DNA from: Eubacterium sp.
GTDB taxonomy: Bacteria; Bacillota_A; Clostridia; Lachnospirales; Lachnospiraceae
Assembly (NCBI GenBank): GCA_024687845.1
Contig: JAILEL010000166.1
Coordinates: 1-9,929 of the forward strand
Reading direction: 5' to 3'
DNA length: 9,929 bases
The notes below the pieces were generated by a model. The model was not told the origin of the DNA. It did no database searches and worked only from the letters and a program-made list of their open reading frames with translations. Each line of letters begins with the position of its first letter. The first letter of the stretch is position 1. The position numbers were made by a program, and so were the translations under genes. Below are positions 1 through 9,929 of the stretch, one piece after another.

Positions 1-1
1 G

Positions 2-76
2 GCACTTGTCAGGGCAATGTATGAGGAACTTCCCGAACCGAAACCGAAGACGAAACGGGGGAAAGGGAAGAAGTAG
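2..76 (+). CDS. 3' end of an unidentified gene (partial)
   Basis: The plus-strand frame is open from the window edge to a TAG stop at 74-76 and reads ALVRAMYEELPEPKPKTK followed by a basic GKGKK-type tail. The gene begins outside the window, so its function cannot be given. The reading frame is supported by a second copy of the same ending at 419-478 (ELVKAMYDELPAPKGKTRKN). The two differ mainly by synonymous and conservative changes, the pattern expected of two related coding ends. The lysine/proline-rich tail looks like a disordered, possibly nucleic-acid-binding C terminus. The region is GC-rich, unlike the operon that begins near 584, and probably belongs to the surrounding genome. Confidence 0.5.
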   Translation, partial: ALVRAMYEELPEPKPKTKRGKGKK

Positions 77-279
77 GGGACGGGGGGAAAGGCACCATGC
101 ATCGGAACGCCGGAAAGGATAAACGCAACCGAAAGGAACTCGGGGGAACCCTAAATGTTTCAACTACCGAGAAATCCTCGGCAGTTCAAAAATACGTGAT
201 ATCCGAGTGCGCAGGGAATCCCGACAGGTTTTACGACGACCGCCTTCCTGTCAAGCCCGTTAAGTCAGCCGCCGCCATG

Positions 280-335
280 ATGCCACATACCCCATGTCCA
301 ATACCCCATACCCCATACCACATACCCCATGCCGG
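280..335. repeat. Heptanucleotide tandem repeat, consensus ATACCCC
   Basis: Eight adjacent 7-base units can be laid out: 280 ATGCCAC, 287 ATACCCC, 294 ATGTCCA, 301 ATACCCC, 308 ATACCCC, 315 ATACCAC, 322 ATACCCC, 329 ATGCCGG. Four units are exact and the outer ones have decayed. Because 7 is not a multiple of 3, gain or loss of a unit shifts any reading frame that crosses it. The array lies between an open frame starting at 97 and the conserved coding frame that ends at 478. It is too short and has no spacers, so it is not a CRISPR array. Confidence 0.85.
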
Positions 336-478
336 ATGCCGTGGAGGAACTTCCCTACGCCGGCGGAACCCCATCATTTCCAGTGGAAAATATCGACGAC
401 GCAACCTTCCTTTGCGAACTCGTAAAGGCAATGTACGATGAGCTTCCGGCGCCGAAAGGGAAAACAAGGAAGAATTGA
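329..478 (+). pseudogene. Second copy of the left-edge gene's 3' end, probably a truncated remnant
   Basis: A short frame opens with ATG at 329-331, inside the last repeat unit, and runs to TGA at 476-478, giving 49 residues. The final 20 (ELVKAMYDELPAPKGKTRKN) match the C terminus of the partial gene at 2-76. The middle part reads FPVENIDDATFLCELVKAM, a plausible helical stretch. The frame is closed upstream by a TGA at 278-280, and no good ribosome binding site is seen before the ATG. It may be a decayed duplicate of the left-edge gene, the tail of a gene frameshifted at the 7-bp repeat, or a short peptide. The duplicated coding end is seen in the sequence; the pseudogene call is inference. 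Confidence 0.4.
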
Positions 479-490
479 GCGATATTGGGG

Positions 491-507
491 AAAATCGGTG
501 TGCCGAC
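491..507 (-). terminator. Possible weak intrinsic terminator for the minus-strand operon
   Basis: On the minus strand the sequence reads TCGG-CACA-CCGA followed directly by TTTT. This is a short 4-5 bp GC-rich stem with a tetraloop and a short T-tract, about 80 bases beyond the stop of the last operon gene. The stem is short, so confidence is low. Its position between two convergent gene ends is where a terminator would be expected. Confidence 0.3.
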
Positions 508-560
508 ATATGTATGACAATTGTCATCTTCACAATTGAAGTTCAAAGAATTGCAATTCT
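506..560. repeat. Run of four back-to-back dyads between convergent gene ends
   Basis: Four inverted repeats tile this stretch: ACATATGT (506-513, perfect), ATGACAATTGTCAT (514-527, perfect), CTTCA-CAAT-TGAAG (528-541, hairpin) and AGAATTGCAATTCT (547-560, perfect). The last three share an AATTG core. They sit exactly where GC-rich flank changes to AT-rich operon and between convergent ends. They could be a bidirectional transcription stop, a protein-binding site, or a scar at the edge of the acquired segment. No T-tract follows most of them, so simple rho-independent termination is not clear. Confidence 0.6.
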
Positions 561-583
561 GACTTTCTGATGCACTCCTAAAA

Positions 584-1198
584 TTAGGAAGACTGTTTTC
601 TTAATGGAATTCGTAAATAAGTATTATTCTCGTAATTGTGTGCATAATTTGGAAGTATATCTAAATAATAAGTCTGAGGAATGCCTATAGCAAGCATTGC
701 ATCTTCACTTCTATACTTCAATAATATCAAGAGGTCATTCTCATATAACCCTAAACGTAGAGCATTAAAAAAATCACTATTTTCAGTATTCTTTTTTGAT
801 AACTGAACTTGTTTTTGTGTTCTTTTTCCAATAGTTACATGTCCTTTTAAGATTGGAAAAGCCTTCACATCAAGTATATTAGGATTCTTTCCATTAAGTG
901 CCCAAATATTATTTTCAATCACACAGACATTTCGCTTGTCAATTTGTTCATTGTCCAGATCATCAAATTCCACATCATTGTAAAAGAAATTAATGGCTTC
1001 TCCAGTGATTGAGATATGAGTCTGATGACTAGATTTATCGGTTTTATTTTTTATCGTTACATTTGCGTTTGCCAATCTTATTGCAACTATTTCTCTGAAA
1101 TTATCTTCAGAAAAGTATTGCTCTACAAATATGGGATTAAAACCCATGTCAATAAAGTAATCTTGTACAAGATTTATCAATTTATCATAAGCAGCCAC
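584..1198 (-). CDS. Uncharacterised protein, last gene of the restriction-modification operon
   Basis: A 204-residue soluble protein with no signal peptide or membrane segment; I do not recognise the family. It starts with GTG at 1196-1198, chosen because GGTGA lies six bases upstream and the gap to the preceding methyltransferase stop is only 13 nt. The next Met is residue 18. An N-terminal helix (about 4-20) is followed by a mixed alpha/beta region. Residues 106-115 (PNILDVKAFP) contain a hydrophobic-Asp-Val-Lys strand that resembles, but does not prove, a nuclease-type (D/E)XK half-motif. The segment near 144-174 (NALRLGLYENDLLILLKY, then AIGIP) looks like a conserved beta-barrel or sheet core. 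Position directly after two methyltransferases suggests a restriction or specificity partner of those enzymes; that is inference only. Confidence 0.8.
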   Translation of the reverse strand: MAAYDKLINLVQDYFIDMGFNPIFVEQYFSEDNFREIVAIRLANANVTIKNKTDKSSHQTHISITGEAINFFYNDVEFDDLDNEQIDKRNVCVIENNIWALNGKNPNILDVKAFPILKGHVTIGKRTQKQVQLSKKNTENSDFFNALRLGLYENDLLILLKYRSEDAMLAIGIPQTYYLDILPNYAHNYENNTYLRIPLRKQSS

Positions 1199-1204
1199 GA
1201 TTAA

Positions 1205-1209
1205 TCACC
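1205..1209 (-). promoter_or_regulatory. Ribosome binding site supporting a GTG start
   Basis: On the minus strand GGTGA precedes the GTG codon at 1196-1198 with a 6-base spacer, inside the 13-base gap after the second methyltransferase. It favours GTG over the next in-frame ATG, 17 codons later, which would cut away the N-terminal helix. Confidence 0.5.
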
Positions 1210-1211
1210 AA

Positions 1212-2618
1212 TCACAAGTATTTACGAATAACTCTAGCAATACACTCACTTAACAATGGAGGTACCGAATTACCGACCTGCATATACGTTTTCGTATATG
1301 TCCCTCTAAAGAAATAATTGTCAGGATATGATTGAACCCTCGCTGCTTCTCTAGGAGTTAATCCTCTCGCTTGCTGTGGGTGGATATACATATTACAATC
1401 ATACTTCATATGTGCAGTTATCGTTTTACATGGTCGATTAGATTCTAATTTGAAGTATTTATCCTTGAATATTTTTTCTCGCCGTTTGTATGGCATAATG
1501 TCTGCGATCTTGGGATCTGAAGAATCATCGCCCTCATTCAACCGTCTAAAGATCTCTATATCCCGTTCATTGTTGTAACGGGCTTTATGGTTAAAGATTA
1601 TGGGCACTTTTACATCCCCGTTTATCGCTTTGAGATAATTATTAATTCTAGTGTTAGTATTTCGAACAAATGTATATCCAGACTGATCATTTTCTATGTC
1701 AGTTTTATTTGGAACTGTCCGTGCAGACAAAGGATTCAAACCATATAGAGCATCTTTAAGCATATAACGTGGTGTATTCTTGCTTATCTCATCTAATTCA
1801 TCAAAGAGATCATCATTATTTACGCCAACTTTATTCCCGATAAAGATAACCCGCTCTCTATTTTGCGGTATTCCAAAATATAGTGCATTTAAACACCTTA
1901 CAGATACTTCATATCCAATGGCTTCAAAATCGTCAATTATTTGATCTTTGACACTTAGCATTCCTCTAACATTCTCCATCACGAAAAACGAAGGAGACAG
2001 AATACTTATTGCTTGAACAAAACTTTTGTACAAATGATTTCTCGGATCATCAATGACTCTTTGTCTATTTGCCATACTAAAGCCTTGACAAGGCGGTCCA
2101 CCAATTACGACATCGACTTTTTGATATCGCAATCTTTCTTCAATTGAATCCAGTATTTCATTTATATCTCCGGCAACAATACACCTTTTTGGAACATCTG
2201 GGTGATTGAATGAAAGCGTATCAATACAGCATTCTTGAATGTCATTAGCTAAACTCAGTCTAAATCCTGCCTTTGTAAAGCCTAATGATAGACCTCCAGC
2301 TCCACAAAAAAAGTCTGCAAAAGTTGGTGTTTTTAATTGTTCTGTCTCTTTTTGCCGCTCAATACGGTAAGTATTACACCATTTATTAATTACACACTCG
2401 TTACACTTATTCTTAGAACACCTTCCTTTCATGTAACCTGCGTGTTCCATTAGATATGCCAGACATTCTCTCTTATGATCAGTATAATACGCCCACTTAG
2501 AATCACCTTCTTCAAACTTGCAGATTCTATCAGCGAGTGCTATGGCTGATTTCTCCGGCAGACTTCCCTTTTTGTATAATTCTAGAATTTGGCACGCTTC
2601 CACAAGATCAGTATGCAT
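1212..2618 (-). CDS. dcm: DNA (cytosine-5-)-methyltransferase with N-terminal four-cysteine module
   Basis: A 468-residue C5-cytosine methyltransferase that would transfer methyl from S-adenosylmethionine to cytosine at a specific DNA site. Motif I is FFCGAGGLSLGF (103-114). Motif IV is GGPPCQGFS with catalytic Cys177. Motif VI is ENVRG (215-219), motif VIII is QNRERVIFIG (252-261), motif IX starts RGLTPREAARVQ (418-429) and motif X is QVGNSVPP (447-454). Residues about 262-395 form a long target-recognition region. Before the catalytic domain lie about 98 extra residues with C67-X4-C72-X2-C75-X5-C81, a possible zinc or iron-sulfur site. The ATG at 2616-2618 overlaps the stop of the preceding methyltransferase gene by 11 nt, which suggests coupled translation. 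The symbol is the generic family label; no CCWGG specificity is implied. The core motifs are all present, so activity is likely. Confidence 0.95.
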   Translation of the reverse strand: MHTDLVEACQILELYKKGSLPEKSAIALADRICKFEEGDSKWAYYTDHKRECLAYLMEHAGYMKGRCSKNKCNECVINKWCNTYRIERQKETEQLKTPTFADFFCGAGGLSLGFTKAGFRLSLANDIQECCIDTLSFNHPDVPKRCIVAGDINEILDSIEERLRYQKVDVVIGGPPCQGFSMANRQRVIDDPRNHLYKSFVQAISILSPSFFVMENVRGMLSVKDQIIDDFEAIGYEVSVRCLNALYFGIPQNRERVIFIGNKVGVNNDDLFDELDEISKNTPRYMLKDALYGLNPLSARTVPNKTDIENDQSGYTFVRNTNTRINNYLKAINGDVKVPIIFNHKARYNNERDIEIFRRLNEGDDSSDPKIADIMPYKRREKIFKDKYFKLESNRPCKTITAHMKYDCNMYIHPQQARGLTPREAARVQSYPDNYFFRGTYTKTYMQVGNSVPPLLSECIARVIRKYL

Positions 2619-3531
2619 TGACTTTTACCACTTGATTCATTATACTCTTTGCAATCGCTTCTGAAACAGTAACGGTGACTGCATTTCCAAACTGTTTGTA
2701 TGCTTGAGCGTCAGATACTGGTATGACAAAATCATCTGGGAAACCTTGTAATCTTGCACACTCTCTCGGTGTTAGTCGCCGTAACCCTTTTTCCTGAGTA
2801 ACATAGTTATCTTGGCAGGCTCTATGCATCTTTCCCATAGTTGCGGTTAAGGGACGTGCTATTTTTAAATCAGTATCGGTTTTAGCTATAAATTTACCAT
2901 TAACATCTCTTAGGATTGTCTTTTTAATGCGTTCGGATAAGAAATACTTATCATCCACATTATCTTCCAACAAATCCTGCAATGTTTTATTCAATTTCTT
3001 AGGCTTAGGAAACTGATAATTAATATCATTCTTTAAGCAGACCAAAAACACACGATTCCTTTTTTGAGGTACGCCATAATCAGCACTGTTAATCGGGCTA
3101 ATAAAAACATTATAGCCCATTCTTTCCAGATTTTTTTTCATTCTAGCAATTGTCTTTCCTCCATTATGAGTAAGCAGATTACGGACATTCTCTAATACAA
3201 CCACATTTGGCTGATGACCTCGTTTTTTCTGATTTTTAAGAATATCAATTACACGAAAGAATAATTTCCCACGTGCGTCTTCAAAGCCTTTTTCATCCCC
3301 CATAACACTAAACGGTTGACAGGGAAATCCGCCAATTAAAACATCATGTTCCGGTATGTCATCATAATTTACAGTATTGATATCTGCACAGCAAGCCGCT
3401 TTTTCAAAATTTGCATTGTATGTCTGGATAGCATACTTGTCAAAATCATTTGCCCATACAATATCAAATCCTGCATTTTTGAAGCCCAGATCAAGACCGC
3501 CACACCCGCAAAACAAAGATGCTACTCTCAT
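2608..3531 (-). CDS. dcm: DNA (cytosine-5-)-methyltransferase, compact form
   Basis: A 307-residue C5-cytosine methyltransferase of about M.HhaI size. Motif I is SLFCGCGGLDLGF (5-17). Motif IV is GGFPCQPFS (67-75) with catalytic Cys71. Motif VI is ENVRNLL (114-120), motif VIII is QKRNRVFLV (156-164), motif IX is RRLTPRECARLQGFPDDF (251-268) and motif X is QFGNAV (280-285). The target-recognition region is short (about 166-245) and unlike that of the adjacent methyltransferase, so the two probably read different sites or different strands of an asymmetric site. The ATG at 3529-3531 lies 7 nt after the AIPR gene stop. AGGAG at 3544-3548 is 12 nt upstream, inside that gene's end. It probably protects host DNA from the operon's nuclease arm. 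The symbol is the generic family label. Confidence 0.96.
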   Translation of the reverse strand: MRVASLFCGCGGLDLGFKNAGFDIVWANDFDKYAIQTYNANFEKAACCADINTVNYDDIPEHDVLIGGFPCQPFSVMGDEKGFEDARGKLFFRVIDILKNQKKRGHQPNVVVLENVRNLLTHNGGKTIARMKKNLERMGYNVFISPINSADYGVPQKRNRVFLVCLKNDINYQFPKPKKLNKTLQDLLEDNVDDKYFLSERIKKTILRDVNGKFIAKTDTDLKIARPLTATMGKMHRACQDNYVTQEKGLRRLTPRECARLQGFPDDFVIPVSDAQAYKQFGNAVTVTVSEAIAKSIMNQVVKVNAY

Positions 3532-3538
3532 ATGCTTA

Positions 3539-5626
3539 TCATTCTCCTAAAAACCCTTCATCAATTAATTTTGCCTCAATATTAACTATGCGCTGGCATT
3601 GTTTTTCTGTAGGTTCTCTTCCAAGATGTATTTTAGTTGCAGATTTAAGGAAACTTATTTCAACTTCGTTAAGTAGTCTCTTTGATTGTCCCCACTTAAG
3701 CGCATTTTCCCAATATTCCGAACCTTTTTGAGTAACCTCTAATTTCACTTGAGCACCACTTAGGAGAACCTGATCTCTTCTACTGCGAACTTTTTCAGCT
3801 TTTTGCTCTTTCTTATTCAGTATATAATCCTGAATTTTACTGCTTAGTACATATTCCTTTGCCTTTAATTCCGCCCAACATGGCTCTTTTTTACACCATT
3901 CTGTTACATTGGTTATTGGTCGCGATTCATCGGTAATATGATCAAATACATGTTTTGTCATTAGAAGGAATTCATTGTACAATGCATCTGGAACACTCTG
4001 TGTATCCCATATGTATCCCAGATTGAGAATACTGCCCTCATATTGTTTATCTATAAGATAATGCAATAAAGACAAGGTATATACGACAATATTTGCCTTA
4101 TATCCTTTATCATACCAACTTTGTTGAGGTACAATCTTATCCACACACTTGAAGAGAATTGCTATGGATACAGTATCCCTAAAGTACTGTTCATTGAATT
4201 GAACATCATCCTTGTTCCATTCACGAACAATATCATTTGCAAACTTCGTAAAGTTCTTCTGCGCTCCAAGGCTCACAAAGTAAGGGTATTCTCTCCAACT
4301 ATTTTGGTATTTAGCAAAATCAGTTTTGGTAATTTTCTGATCTTTTGGATTCTGCATCTGATACTTCTTTTTTTCAGCTTGCGTCATCTTACTCTGTTCT
4401 TGGTCATACTGACCTCTTGAGCGCTCAAAGAACCAGTGTGTCTCATATTGCTGACCGCCCTTTGCCGGAGCATACAACTTTCTTGAAATCTGCTGCATAC
4501 GAATATTGAATTCATGATTTGAGAAGAAATCAGCATCAGAGACCTTATTTTGACTATTAGATCCCCTTGATATTTTTGGTATCAAGATCTGTGCTTGATC
4601 ATGATTAGGAATAACAGTCAATTTCATTTGGACATATATTCCAGATAATTCAGCTTTATCACGATATCTTGTATTTGATAAGGATGCAGTAGTTTGTCCA
4701 CCATTCACGATCTGTAAATTATTGATGGATGCAATGTATTTCCCATTTTCAGTGTCATTAATTGTCACTTCTGTGGCGGTTGCAGAGATACCATTGTTGT
4801 AAGCAAAGAACATTCTCTTGCTCTCGCCATCTGCCTCAAGTATTGTTTTTCGTATATTTTTATTTACAGCACCTTTTGTCGATAAGAAGGAACGGACATT
4901 TCCTTCCAAAAGTCTACTCCCGTAATCGTCGTATAAATCCGCCAAAATGGATCCCGGAATAACACAAAGCAGACATTTAATGTCATCTCCTGAAACATCA
5001 CTTGCTTCTAAACAAGGCAATCCTTGTTTAGTTATATTTAGGAAATCAATCACCACAGGCTCGTGTCCATCGCCTGTGCTCATAACACGGTGTAATCTGC
5101 TAATGTCCCAGATGTTATATTCAATTTTAGTTCCGTTTATTTCGCTATACTCAAGAGATGATATTTTCCCGCTCATCTCTTTATCTGTGAGTATAAAGAA
5201 TCTATATTTCCGTATCGTGTTTTTTAAATCCAAAATAGTCTCAACTAAATCATAAATCGGGCGACTTATCTCTATTTCATAAAGAAGATTCCCATTGAGT
5301 ACAGCGTCCAGAAACGTAAATAGTTTTTCAAATAACGCAACAGAATCGGTTTTAGTTATTGTTACAATTTCATTTTCACCGGAATAATCAGCAATAAACA
5401 AAGACATCGATAAATCAAATTCATCAAAAGAATATGCATCTACCCTATAATTCTTTCTTCCATAACGTCCTTGTCCATAACAGACCTCAAAGTCATCAAT
5501 AACATTAAGATCGTGCAGATCTTGAAGAATAGTAGACACAAAAGTGGTAACTGTGCCTTCACTATCGTGGGCAGCTTGAGCTTTTATGCTTTCTAGGTAA
5601 TCTTTTCTGTACTCATCCATATTCAT
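3539..5626 (-). CDS. AIPR family (abortive infection phage resistance) protein
   Basis: About 695 residues, matching AIPR proteins (Pfam PF10592) found in phage-resistance and restriction operons. Family-type motifs are FFAYNNGISATA (273-284), VNGGQTTASL (307-316), RGSNSQNKVSDADFF (354-368) and HWFFERSRGQY (397-407). The N-terminal part has RVDAYSFDEF (61-70) followed by a beta-strand LSMSLFIADY (72-81). In other AIPR proteins this position can hold a nuclease-like Asp...QXK pattern, and the Lys motif is not evident here. The biochemical role of AIPR is not settled; it is usually viewed as an effector or nucleic-acid-binding component. I chose ATG 5624-5626 because AGAGGA lies 8 nt upstream; an in-frame TTG two codons earlier has no proper spacing. 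The start overlaps the previous gene by 14 nt. Confidence 0.92.
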   Translation of the reverse strand: MNMDEYRKDYLESIKAQAAHDSEGTVTTFVSTILQDLHDLNVIDDFEVCYGQGRYGRKNYRVDAYSFDEFDLSMSLFIADYSGENEIVTITKTDSVALFEKLFTFLDAVLNGNLLYEIEISRPIYDLVETILDLKNTIRKYRFFILTDKEMSGKISSLEYSEINGTKIEYNIWDISRLHRVMSTGDGHEPVVIDFLNITKQGLPCLEASDVSGDDIKCLLCVIPGSILADLYDDYGSRLLEGNVRSFLSTKGAVNKNIRKTILEADGESKRMFFAYNNGISATATEVTINDTENGKYIASINNLQIVNGGQTTASLSNTRYRDKAELSGIYVQMKLTVIPNHDQAQILIPKISRGSNSQNKVSDADFFSNHEFNIRMQQISRKLYAPAKGGQQYETHWFFERSRGQYDQEQSKMTQAEKKKYQMQNPKDQKITKTDFAKYQNSWREYPYFVSLGAQKNFTKFANDIVREWNKDDVQFNEQYFRDTVSIAILFKCVDKIVPQQSWYDKGYKANIVVYTLSLLHYLIDKQYEGSILNLGYIWDTQSVPDALYNEFLLMTKHVFDHITDESRPITNVTEWCKKEPCWAELKAKEYVLSSKIQDYILNKKEQKAEKVRSRRDQVLLSGAQVKLEVTQKGSEYWENALKWGQSKRLLNEVEISFLKSATKIHLGREPTEKQCQRIVNIEAKLIDEGFLGE

Positions 5627-6578
5627 AGTCAAAATCCTCTACTTTCCATTCATCAATACCCGATATCGAAAGATCATACCTTACTCCAGTAACCTCAGGA
5701 GGAACAGTTCCTGTGATTAATCGCGGGAATGTATCATTCACTTCAAACACTTTCTGATTTCCAATCACGAAAAACATATCCTCATACGCCTTCTTATCGA
5801 TATAACCAATAAGAATTAGCTTCTTTTCAAATTCATCTTGAGCATCTGGGAAGTTTTGAAGAATATCCCGTATCTCATCCACATATTCTTTAACACTTTT
5901 TGCGCTTGAATCAGACTTAGTTGATGAATCCACGCAATTCACAATCAGATAACCTCTATTTTTAGATTCAAGCTGATTAAGTGATGAAATAGTCAATATG
6001 TCCTTACCTGTTGATATTGCCTTTATCTCATACCATAATACCCCCAAAACAAAATCTCTGTCTGCACCTTCAGGTCCCTGCCACGCATCTAATACTTTAT
6101 CCGCACTAATGCCTTTAGAGAGTAGAACCTTTATAAAGCACAATTCCCCTAATAATCCTTTTATTACGCTTATAGGTAAGTTGTCATTTATTGAAACAAA
6201 TAATTTTGACCATGCCAAATATCGCTTTGCAACTAACTCTAGCCCTTCAGTTTCTGTACGTGCATTTTTTGAACATTCAATTAAATCTACACATAATCTT
6301 GCAAAAATGTCTTGATTAGCTTTATCAACGGAATATATCTGTGTAGCCCATTTCCCATCATTTCGAAGATTAATTTGTACCTCCAGAGCTTTGCTGGATT
6401 TTATCTGTGAGGGTTCATTCGTTGTGAACAAAGCAAGTTCATCATATCCTTCTCTGCTTATTCCCACAAAGAAGTGTAAAGGATGATCTGGATCTATTCT
6501 TTGCATTGCTCCGGATGCATCTCTTAAGCTATTCCATTTTTGCTTTAAATTATTTGTATCAATACTCATCCTCATCAT
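5613..6578 (-). CDS. PD-(D/E)XK motif protein (DUF4420-like), putative restriction nuclease
   Basis: About 321 residues, resembling the PD-(D/E)XK nuclease-fold family of Pfam PF14390 (DUF4420), which recurs next to Z1 and AIPR genes. The putative active site is Glu145 in GLLGELCF, Asp173/Asp175 in EGADRDFVLGV and Glu184-Ile-Lys186 in LWYEIKAIS. This is the D...EXK arrangement with the upstream helix Glu, as in Mg-dependent endonucleases, so it is the best DNA-cutting candidate here. Start: five closely spaced in-frame candidates exist (TTG 6590, ATG 6584, 6578, 6575, 6569). I prefer ATG 6576-6578 because GAGG sits 6 nt upstream. The gene overlaps the Z1 gene by 20 nt and the AIPR gene by 14 nt. 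The exact N terminus is uncertain by a few residues. Confidence 0.88.
   Translation of the reverse strand: MMRMSIDTNNLKQKWNSLRDASGAMQRIDPDHPLHFFVGISREGYDELALFTTNEPSQIKSSKALEVQINLRNDGKWATQIYSVDKANQDIFARLCVDLIECSKNARTETEGLELVAKRYLAWSKLFVSINDNLPISVIKGLLGELCFIKVLLSKGISADKVLDAWQGPEGADRDFVLGVLWYEIKAISTGKDILTISSLNQLESKNRGYLIVNCVDSSTKSDSSAKSVKEYVDEIRDILQNFPDAQDEFEKKLILIGYIDKKAYEDMFFVIGNQKVFEVNDTFPRLITGTVPPEVTGVRYDLSISGIDEWKVEDFDYEYG
5635..5640 (-). promoter_or_regulatory. Ribosome binding site for the AIPR gene
   Basis: On the minus strand AGAGGA is followed by the 8-base spacer TTTTGACT and then ATG at 5624-5626. The TTG inside the spacer is an in-frame alternative start but would be only 2 nt from this site. 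The element lies within the 3' end of the PD-(D/E)XK gene. Confidence 0.6.
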
Positions 6579-9351
6579 CGCCATCCTCAAAATTGAAGAC
6601 TTCCTGCACTTTTACACGATTAAGCACATATTTTACTCTTGTACTATCTCGGTTAGATCCATCATATTCCCCTGGGAAACCAATTCCAAGACCAACTACC
6701 GGCAAATCTCTCACAAGTTCTTTAGATTTCTTATCAGAATTAAATTTCCTCGTGGTTTTATCTTCTTGATCTACCTCTATGAAATAGATCAAAAGAACTG
6801 GATCCCTTGGGATTCGTAAATACACTTTATCAGGTATTGTTTTTCCTTCATTCCTTGGATCACTTCTATACTGTTCATCTATAGCATCAACTTGTTTTTT
6901 CGTCAATCCACATTTAGTTGCGCCCGGCGCACCAACTCTTGCACGCTCTCCAGAAATTAATAGACAATTTTCATCTCTAATCATTACCCTTTTTGAGTAT
7001 TTAAGACCTAAATTAATGATTTCTTGCGGGAAGTATTCATTACTATACTTATCACCAGATCCCCCTACAATTGATACAGTCCATTTATCGAAACTCTTTG
7101 GATCTCTTATGTGTTCGGACAAATCTTTAGCACTAAATGGGATGTGTCTGGGATGAGCAATAAAAGTGCTAATGAAATCTGCTATTTTATTCTTATCAAT
7201 ATCTGTATAAACAACCCTATTCTTTTCATAGTTGTATTCAGCACTGTATTTTCCAGCCCCATTAATGATCTCTTCCAAAAATGAACATGTATTATTCAAA
7301 TTCGGTTTCAAACAGGTTTCAATATTTGCAACTAATCGTGGGGTTTCAACAAGTTCAGCCGCAAGACTCACCCACTTCTCAAAAATTTCCGTGGCACGCA
7401 TTTTTGATCTCGCTGTTACAAAAAGCGCAGTCATATTTTCTTGAACTTGTAATCCAAATTCTTTTGGTGTCAGTCCCGTTCTCCGCATTTCCGAGATATC
7501 GTTTCTCAATTCAGTAATTGCATTAGTAATGTATTGATACCAGTTTATTGCATTAGGTTCCATCCAGATCTTGAAGAGATTTTCATAGCCGGATCTATAT
7601 CCAAACCATCTCCCCATCTGCATCAAAGTATCATACATCTGCGAATTTCTGTCAAAATAGCTGACACATAAACCCTCAAGAGTCAGTCCTCTCGACAAAC
7701 TATTGCCACCCACAGCAATTACTCTAAGTCCAAATTCCTTATAGGGTTCATAATCAAGTTTTTCAATACCAAATTCTTTTGACCTTCCATTTACAATACT
7801 TACTTGAATAGGAGAAACTCCTTCGTAAAGAGCATCTAACATTTCCTCTTTAGAATAACCAGTAACCTCAGTTAAAGAATATTCATCCCAAGTATTCAGT
7901 ATATCTTTTATTTCCGTATGCTGTGACGCCCTATCAATACCAAGTTTGCTATATGATTGTATCTTGGATTTTAATTCTTTCAAATAAGTAGACACCAACT
8001 CATAAACTTGACTTTGCACATTTACATACTGGCTTACATTTATGAGCATAGATCTGTGTGTTTTGTTTGCACCATCCAAGTCACGTATTGTATTAACAAG
8101 CAAGAAATATCGTATGGCTTTTTTTAAGCTGCTTGGCAAAAAGGGAACAATATGAGCGGATCGATCTCTTGATCTAAAAACATACCTGTTATTCTCAATG
8201 TCTATGGCAACATCTTCTATCGTTTCTAGAGAGTTAGTGTACTCGGCATCTCCTGTAAAAATATTTCTTGCCCCTATATAATTCGTAGGTGGTGAAAGTG
8301 CATATATGAAATCGCTTGGAAATAGATTAAACCCATCATTCATATCCAGATCAGGATCAATAAATATATTGGCAAAGGGTGTTGCAGTAACAGCCACATA
8401 CGAAAAGCGATTGAACATCTTCAACACTTCTACAATTGCCTTATTAATCGCAGTTGGATCTTGATCGGGCTTATTGGTGTTTACTGATGCATTATCAGCC
8501 TCGTCATCGATCAAAAGAAGAGGTAGATCTATTTTCTCCCCTTGTCTATCTGTGTTACGACTCTTTAGCCATGTGGTGAGATTCTCTAAAACCTTTTTAT
8601 TTTTCTTTAAAACCAGTATTACCGGCTCAGACAACCCCTTTATTGTAAAATTTAGGGACTGTAATTTATTCATATTAAAATCAGTCAATACATCTGTAAA
8701 CTGATACGCCGTTCTGGTACAGTCTATATTTCCGACACCCAGATATTTTTTTTCAGGATTCTTTTTTAAAACATTTCTGCTGTTTAAACCTACAAATCCA
8801 GCATCAACTCGTTCTTGTGTCTGTTTCCTCAAAGGTTCTACTGTTCCAGTAAGAAGAATGATTACTTTGTATCCTGCATCAGCAGCCTTATTGCAGAGTG
8901 CTAGATAATTAGACGTTTTCCCTGATTGAATGTCGCCTAATATAAGCCCCTTTCTTTTCCAAGGATTAGGATCCTCTGGATTTCCACATAGATCAAGAAT
9001 ACGATCACTGACATCATCAAGTGATTCTATGATTGTTGGCATCCAACCAAGATCAATTTCTAAATACCTAGCATATCTCTTCCAATAATAATCATCAATT
9101 TTTGCCTTTCGATGCGCTAGCCAAGGGCTATATGTACTTTCATCATGTACATCTTCACCCAAATCCATTTGCACCTTAAAACTTGATTGGAGAATTTTTT
9201 CGAGATATTCCTTTTCATTGCTATCTAGAGCTATCAGAGATGATGCTTTTTCAATTGCTGCTTTTATATCATCTTCACTAGGAATCCTATCCCCAATATC
9301 ATTTCTAAGCATAATCCTTGCTATATTTTCAGCATCCCTCAAATTGACCAT
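6559..9351 (-). CDS. Z1 domain-containing ATPase (helicase-like)
   Basis: A 930-residue protein with SF2-helicase-like P-loop motifs and a Z1 domain (Pfam PF10593), a hallmark of restriction systems that also carry MutL/MORC-like ATPases. Walker A is GDIQSGKT (139-146) and Walker B is LLLIDDEAD (278-286). A motif III-like TATP lies at 322-325. The Z1-type second half contains SRGLTLEG (553-560) and QMGRWFGYR (578-586), matching late SF2 motifs with an arginine finger. It probably uses ATP to translocate on or remodel DNA and to license the nuclease. About 300 further residues follow, ending in an acidic tail (FEDGDDEDEY). The ATG at 9349-9351 is 1 nt after the preceding stop, with AGGAGA 9 nt upstream (9361-9366). 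The 3' end overlaps the PD-(D/E)XK gene. All motifs look intact. Confidence 0.95.
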   Translation of the reverse strand: MVNLRDAENIARIMLRNDIGDRIPSEDDIKAAIEKASSLIALDSNEKEYLEKILQSSFKVQMDLGEDVHDESTYSPWLAHRKAKIDDYYWKRYARYLEIDLGWMPTIIESLDDVSDRILDLCGNPEDPNPWKRKGLILGDIQSGKTSNYLALCNKAADAGYKVIILLTGTVEPLRKQTQERVDAGFVGLNSRNVLKKNPEKKYLGVGNIDCTRTAYQFTDVLTDFNMNKLQSLNFTIKGLSEPVILVLKKNKKVLENLTTWLKSRNTDRQGEKIDLPLLLIDDEADNASVNTNKPDQDPTAINKAIVEVLKMFNRFSYVAVTATPFANIFIDPDLDMNDGFNLFPSDFIYALSPPTNYIGARNIFTGDAEYTNSLETIEDVAIDIENNRYVFRSRDRSAHIVPFLPSSLKKAIRYFLLVNTIRDLDGANKTHRSMLINVSQYVNVQSQVYELVSTYLKELKSKIQSYSKLGIDRASQHTEIKDILNTWDEYSLTEVTGYSKEEMLDALYEGVSPIQVSIVNGRSKEFGIEKLDYEPYKEFGLRVIAVGGNSLSRGLTLEGLCVSYFDRNSQMYDTLMQMGRWFGYRSGYENLFKIWMEPNAINWYQYITNAITELRNDISEMRRTGLTPKEFGLQVQENMTALFVTARSKMRATEIFEKWVSLAAELVETPRLVANIETCLKPNLNNTCSFLEEIINGAGKYSAEYNYEKNRVVYTDIDKNKIADFISTFIAHPRHIPFSAKDLSEHIRDPKSFDKWTVSIVGGSGDKYSNEYFPQEIINLGLKYSKRVMIRDENCLLISGERARVGAPGATKCGLTKKQVDAIDEQYRSDPRNEGKTIPDKVYLRIPRDPVLLIYFIEVDQEDKTTRKFNSDKKSKELVRDLPVVGLGIGFPGEYDGSNRDSTRVKYVLNRVKVQEVFNFEDGDDEDEY
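6585..6588 (-). promoter_or_regulatory. Shine-Dalgarno-like GAGG deciding the PD-(D/E)XK gene start
   Basis: On the minus strand GAGG is followed by six bases and ATG at 6576-6578, inside the acidic 3' end of the Z1 gene. It favours that ATG over the TTG at 6590, which overlaps it, and over ATG 6569, whose AGG is immediately adjacent. Confidence 0.4.
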
Positions 9352-9352
9352 T

Positions 9353-9844
9353 TTATTTTATCTCCTGATATAATTCGCGTATTTCATCCATGTAATCCAT
9401 AAATGGCTCAATAGTTTCTAAACTTTTAACCACATCTTGTAAATTTCCATTTTTTTGTGCTTCTTTCAGAATGATCATAGCCATGCTCTTTACTCTAATG
9501 CATTCATCGCTTTCTTTATCTTTCACTATTTTTACATCTGTACTTAAGTCATAATGCAGATTGTTAAACAGTAAATTATTCTGTACAGTTTCCAAATATT
9601 CCATCAACAATTTCTGATTATTACCATCCATGGATTCCTTTAAAATCTTTAGAATTGGATGATCAGTATTTATTACATATTTAACGCCTTCTCTTGTTTC
9701 TACCTTATCCCATACGGTTGTTATATTGCTTCGCAGTTCTTTTCGTTGTCGGAAATTCCAAGTCCTTTTACTTCCATTTGACATTGTTCCAACGAGTTGT
9801 TTCAGCCTAGTCTTCACAATTTCCGGGGGGTAAGCTGTAGACAT
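9353..9844 (-). CDS. C-terminal part of a GHKL/MORC-like ATP-binding protein, cut off by an in-frame stop
   Basis: A 163-residue open frame beginning ATG TCT (MSTAYPPEIV) and ending 1 nt before the Z1 gene. It has no complete enzymatic domain, no signal peptide and no membrane segment; it is mainly helical. The frame continues upstream, in phase, through a single TGA at 9860-9862 into further coding-like sequence. Read through, the junction is NSLDEV-stop-TIDIKMSTAYPP. In MutL/MORC-like ATPases of Z1 operons I expect a Trp-containing strand and an IDIKKS-type segment here, so I read this as the C-terminal third of that ATPase rather than a separate gene. In such systems the ATPase would act as an ATP-gated clamp or switch with Z1. 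No clear ribosome binding site precedes the ATG; coupled re-initiation after the TGA is possible. A true small stand-alone gene cannot be excluded. Confidence 0.7.
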   Translation of the reverse strand: MSTAYPPEIVKTRLKQLVGTMSNGSKRTWNFRQRKELRSNITTVWDKVETREGVKYVINTDHPILKILKESMDGNNQKLLMEYLETVQNNLLFNNLHYDLSTDVKIVKDKESDECIRVKSMAMIILKEAQKNGNLQDVVKSLETIEPFMDYMDEIRELYQEIK

Positions 9845-9859
9845 CTTAATGTCAATAGT

Positions 9860-9929
9860 TCATACTTCATCTAACGAATTAGCAACATCTACTCTAACTC
9901 TTGCAATTTTAGAAAATTCATCCATTTTT
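9860..9929 (-). pseudogene. Upstream piece of the interrupted GHKL/MORC-like ATPase gene (partial)
   Basis: The minus strand is open from the window edge to TGA at 9860-9862 and reads MDEFSKIARVRVDVANSLDEV. The alternating hydrophobic stretch IARVRVDVANSL looks like a beta-strand of an S5-type domain, which in GHKL ATPases follows the ATP-binding domain. It is in the same frame as the ORF ending at 9353 (stop and next ATG are 15 nt apart), so one G-to-A change (TGG to TGA) would explain the split. The Met at 9923-9925 is probably internal, and the gene starts beyond the window. The interruption is inferred from frame and family expectation. Confidence 0.5.

Follow-up and report, generated by a model that had tools for sequence, protein, structure and literature searches.

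A gut-bacterial anti-phage gene cluster that probably joins LlaJI-type methylating and DNA-reading parts to MZA-like cutting machinery

We analyzed a 9,929-nt stretch of Eubacterium sp. DNA (Lachnospiraceae; assembly GCA_024687845.1, contig JAILEL010000166.1, positions 1 to 9,929; hereafter, the window), which carries a putative anti-phage cluster of seven minus-strand open reading frames (ORFs). Two of them encode C5-cytosine DNA methyltransferases (MTases), M1 (307 aa, 2608..3531; PF00145, 1.3e-91) and M2 (468 aa, 1212..2618; PF00145, 2.5e-64), and the final one encodes a 204-aa protein (584..1198) that is predicted to be a standalone B3-fold DNA-recognition (specificity) subunit. The others are the 3′ portion of a gene for an MzaB-like GHKL ATPase (9353..9929), a Z1 gene homologous to mzaC (6559..9351; PF10593, 1.3e-74), an MzaD-like DUF4420 PD-(D/E)XK nuclease gene (325 aa, 5613..6590; PF14390, 1.9e-61), and an MzaE-like AIPR gene (697 aa, 3539..5632; PF10592, 2.7e-95; PF22879, 1.6e-42), the latter two given as longest ORFs with uncertain TTG starts. 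The genes overlap or nearly abut one another, as they do in two related loci, L001 and L002, and the M1-M2 pair occupies the place of the single MTase of other loci. These matches and this packing agree with the original prediction, which had described a tightly packed seven-gene operon with Z1, PD-(D/E)XK, AIPR, and two C5-MTase genes.

The 204-aa protein was modeled as a B3 pseudobarrel, and sequence searches concurred with this fold. It is strongly conserved, with a mean column identity of 78% over 37 sequences, and carries conserved QTHI..TG and QVQ motifs, candidates for the N-arm and C-arm DNA contacts of B3 domains, the former adjoining a low-confidence loop (residues 44-58). Matches occurred in 4 of 397 Lachnospiraceae genomes (G001, G002, G270, and G207), and those of G270 and G207 (E values of 1.5e-4 and 3e-4) corresponded to the N terminus of an McrB-like AAA protein lying directly after an M2 homologue. 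When 398 genomes from the phylum were searched with a profile, three had a match (G001, G753, and G550). Among 20 chosen proteins, the B3 profile matched one of L071 (6e-15), the McrB N termini of L056, L057, L096, and L072 (9e-10 to 4e-8), and two 386-aa HNH_2 proteins of L096 (2e-7) and L095 (2e-4). In the full set of 523 ORFs from 15 cassette loci, the profile gave the same matches (2e-13 to 6e-3) plus an additional one to a 386-aa L056 protein (1e-4). Twelve columns were invariant across 13 sequences from all four architectures, including Q59, H61, G66, Q130, and Q132. The profile had no match in R1 of the pNP40 LlaJI, nor in R1 of the Treponema and Pedobacter operons.

Several of these proteins can be described further. 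The 386-aa protein of L071 (8707-9867), encoded just after an M1-M2 pair, has an N-terminal B3 and, as read by eye, a PD-(D/E)XK-like C terminus, and is possibly a simple Type IIS-like enzyme. The weakly matching 386-aa proteins lie at L096:5717-6877, L056:5471-6631, and L095:12899-14059, with HNH_2 in both that were tested (L095 and L096); those of L096 and L056 are encoded divergently beside a complete LlaJI-type operon with its own B3-McrB.

Plant transcription-factor B3 domains were among the fold matches of the 204-aa protein, and small DNA-binding proteins commonly regulate restriction-modification (R-M) operons, so we considered whether it is an operon regulator, or a factor that targets the MTases instead of the nuclease. 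Both roles appear improbable. Its homologues in the loci seen were joined to McrB-like motors, to a PD-(D/E)XK-like end, or to HNH nucleases, and none to a methyltransferase or regulator; the gene for the 204-aa protein comes last in the packed series. Furthermore, the target-recognition part of a C5-MTase lies between motifs VIII and IX, and both window MTases have a region of their own there.

Between the window and loci L056 and L096, this region of M1 was as conserved as the core (60-62% versus 61%), and that of M2 somewhat less so (57% versus 67-68%), whereas in L071, L072, and L095, the VIII-IX regions stood at 47 to 60%. From these identities, we infer that the window, L001, L002, L056, and L096 share one target. 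In a tree of 48 MTases, 18 of which came from other MZA loci, window M2 clustered with the M2s of LlaJI-type and related loci (15 rows, 100/98), a clade that held none of the 18. Window M1 grouped with the M1s from those loci (9 rows), although not with good support (82/81), and this group was nested in a 13-row branch (100/100) that also holds two long-branch MZA MTases, from L051 and L076. L056 is a Lachnospiraceae LlaJI-type locus that carries RE_LlaJI and whose MTases are both 61% identical to those of the window. Another LlaJI-type locus, L057 (7213-12400), has its M1, McrB, and R2 each shortened or in pieces.

The cassette of M1, M2, and B3 might instead be a separate or remnant LlaJI-type R-M system that has lost its motor, lying beside a self-sufficient MzaBCDE that the B3 protein does not guide. 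We regard this as unlikely, given that the pair holds the single-MTase place within tightly packed genes at all three loci and that the B3 protein is so strongly conserved. Searches of the seven window ORFs and of the surroundings of L001 and L002 turned up neither an McrB-like R1 nor an McrC-like R2, and L049 is similarly arranged with a different B3.

The MzaC homologue retains its motor motifs (Walker A GDIQSGKT, DDEAD, TATP, and DTLMQMGRWFGYR), and the E, D, and ExK positions of DUF4420 are intact and conserved in all 14 proteins aligned (from 22 at hand). The mzaB-like gene is truncated at the window end and interrupted in frame by a TGA (9860-9862); all 11 aligned relatives have a residue in that column. 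Because TGA ends five of the seven window genes, it was read as a stop, and the window copy has either been disrupted or contains a sequencing error close to the end of the contig. The ORF beyond the stop (9353-9844, 163 aa) shares 62-64% identity with the C-terminal portion of relatives of 492 and 497 aa; it matched MzaB (NF041932) at 1.6e-5, and PADLOC ranked REase_III first (2e-6) and MzaB second (0.0019). The copies in L001 and L002 are intact, and the 492-aa L001 protein has HATPase_c_3 at residues 24-161, so the predicted GHKL domain is absent from the window, where only the C-terminal part of the gene is present. The original observation is confirmed in part, with seven ORFs but one of them cut and interrupted, and its interpretation as an ATP-dependent restriction system that uses 5-methylcytosine for self-recognition is also supported in part.

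That the B3/MTase part senses foreign DNA, after which AIPR or MzaBCDE causes cell death or arrest without restricting the phage genome as such, has little probability in our estimate. The name AIPR derives from abortive infection, and no mechanism for the MZA-like class is stated in the available text of PMC9523054; against this stand the intact catalytic positions and motor motifs and the description of LlaJI and CglI as restriction systems in the available parts of PMC1459862 and PMC4267653.

Outside the operon, the higher-GC flank holds a 48-nt direct repeat (4-51 and 418-465), with 75% identity between its copies, and 6.4 tandem copies of CATACCC (286-330).

Taken together, the cluster is probably a hybrid, in which M1, M2, and the B3 protein would be the methylating and DNA-reading parts of LlaJI type, and the MzaBCDE-like proteins would be the cutting machinery, with the B3 protein as its recognition subunit. 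More tentatively, and with a chance somewhat short of even, MzaBCDE may be a specificity-neutral restriction engine that accepts standalone B3 "address" proteins and matching MTases from different restriction families, M1-M2-B3 being a mobile specificity cassette whose target stays the same while the scissors change (MzaBCDE, McrBC-like, PD-(D/E)XK-like fusion, or HNH fusion). Two results slightly lowered our confidence in both proposals: both pNP40 LlaJI MTases fell outside the window M1 and M2 clades, and the HNH group gave the weakest B3 matches. If true, specificity would be exchangeable between unrelated DNA-cutting machines as subunits besides fused domains. The hybrid also suggests what an MZA-like defence machine targets; the literature available gives no mechanism for this class, and a recognition subunit makes its DNA target a testable question.

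The MZA anti-phage system reportedly comprises mzaABCDE, as described by Gao and colleagues in 2020. Compared with its NCBIfam models (NF041931-NF041935), the window has MzaB, C, D, and E homologues in letter order, but scores lie far below the equivalog cut-offs (MzaC, NF041933, 503 bits versus 1500; MzaE, NF041935, 368 versus 1050; MzaD, 118 versus 420; L001 MzaB, 300 versus 850), and two C5-MTases and a B3 protein are additional. For the sigma-70-like MzaA, G001 and G002 together gave 20 matches, and the operon-bearing contigs of these two relatives had none of them; the window itself ends before the region upstream of its mzaB-like gene. The strongest in G001 fell in an ordinary-looking sigma-70 gene (L005:964-2277), strong over NF041931 positions 456-716, so sub-cut-off NF041931 matches are no proof of an MZA locus.

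LlaJI, as far as PMC1459862 is available, likewise combines a pair of C5-MTases with a B3 domain for recognition, but its B3 lies within the motor protein instead of standing free, and its motor and nuclease are McrB/McrC-like instead of MzaBCDE. The window pair groups with pairs of LlaJI-type loci, whereas LlaJI's own MTases are distant; asymmetric GACGC-type recognition is a feature of LlaJI. CglI/NgoAVII differ more: in the available part of PMC4267653, they have three genes, one MTase, a PLD-B3 fusion nuclease, and no GHKL, DUF4420, or AIPR gene, and no PLD domain was among the domain matches of the window's seven ORFs.

That the operon class was known from comparative genomics, as originally predicted, holds. 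The third MORC/paraMORC operon type of Iyer 2008 (PMC2292703, available in part) shares an SFII helicase, an RE-fold protein, and DNA cytosine methylases; its helicase motif DThhQXuRhFG reads DTLMQMGRWFG here, AIPR is named in the Figure 2 legend, and the available text does not describe a standalone B3 with two MTases. Miller 2022 (PMC9523054) likened its Type II putative defence system to mza and left function and mechanism for later study, and its available text mentions neither a B3 subunit nor a two-MTase cassette. For this published operon class, our literature search found neither the LlaJI-type-cassette hybrid nor the identity of the last gene.
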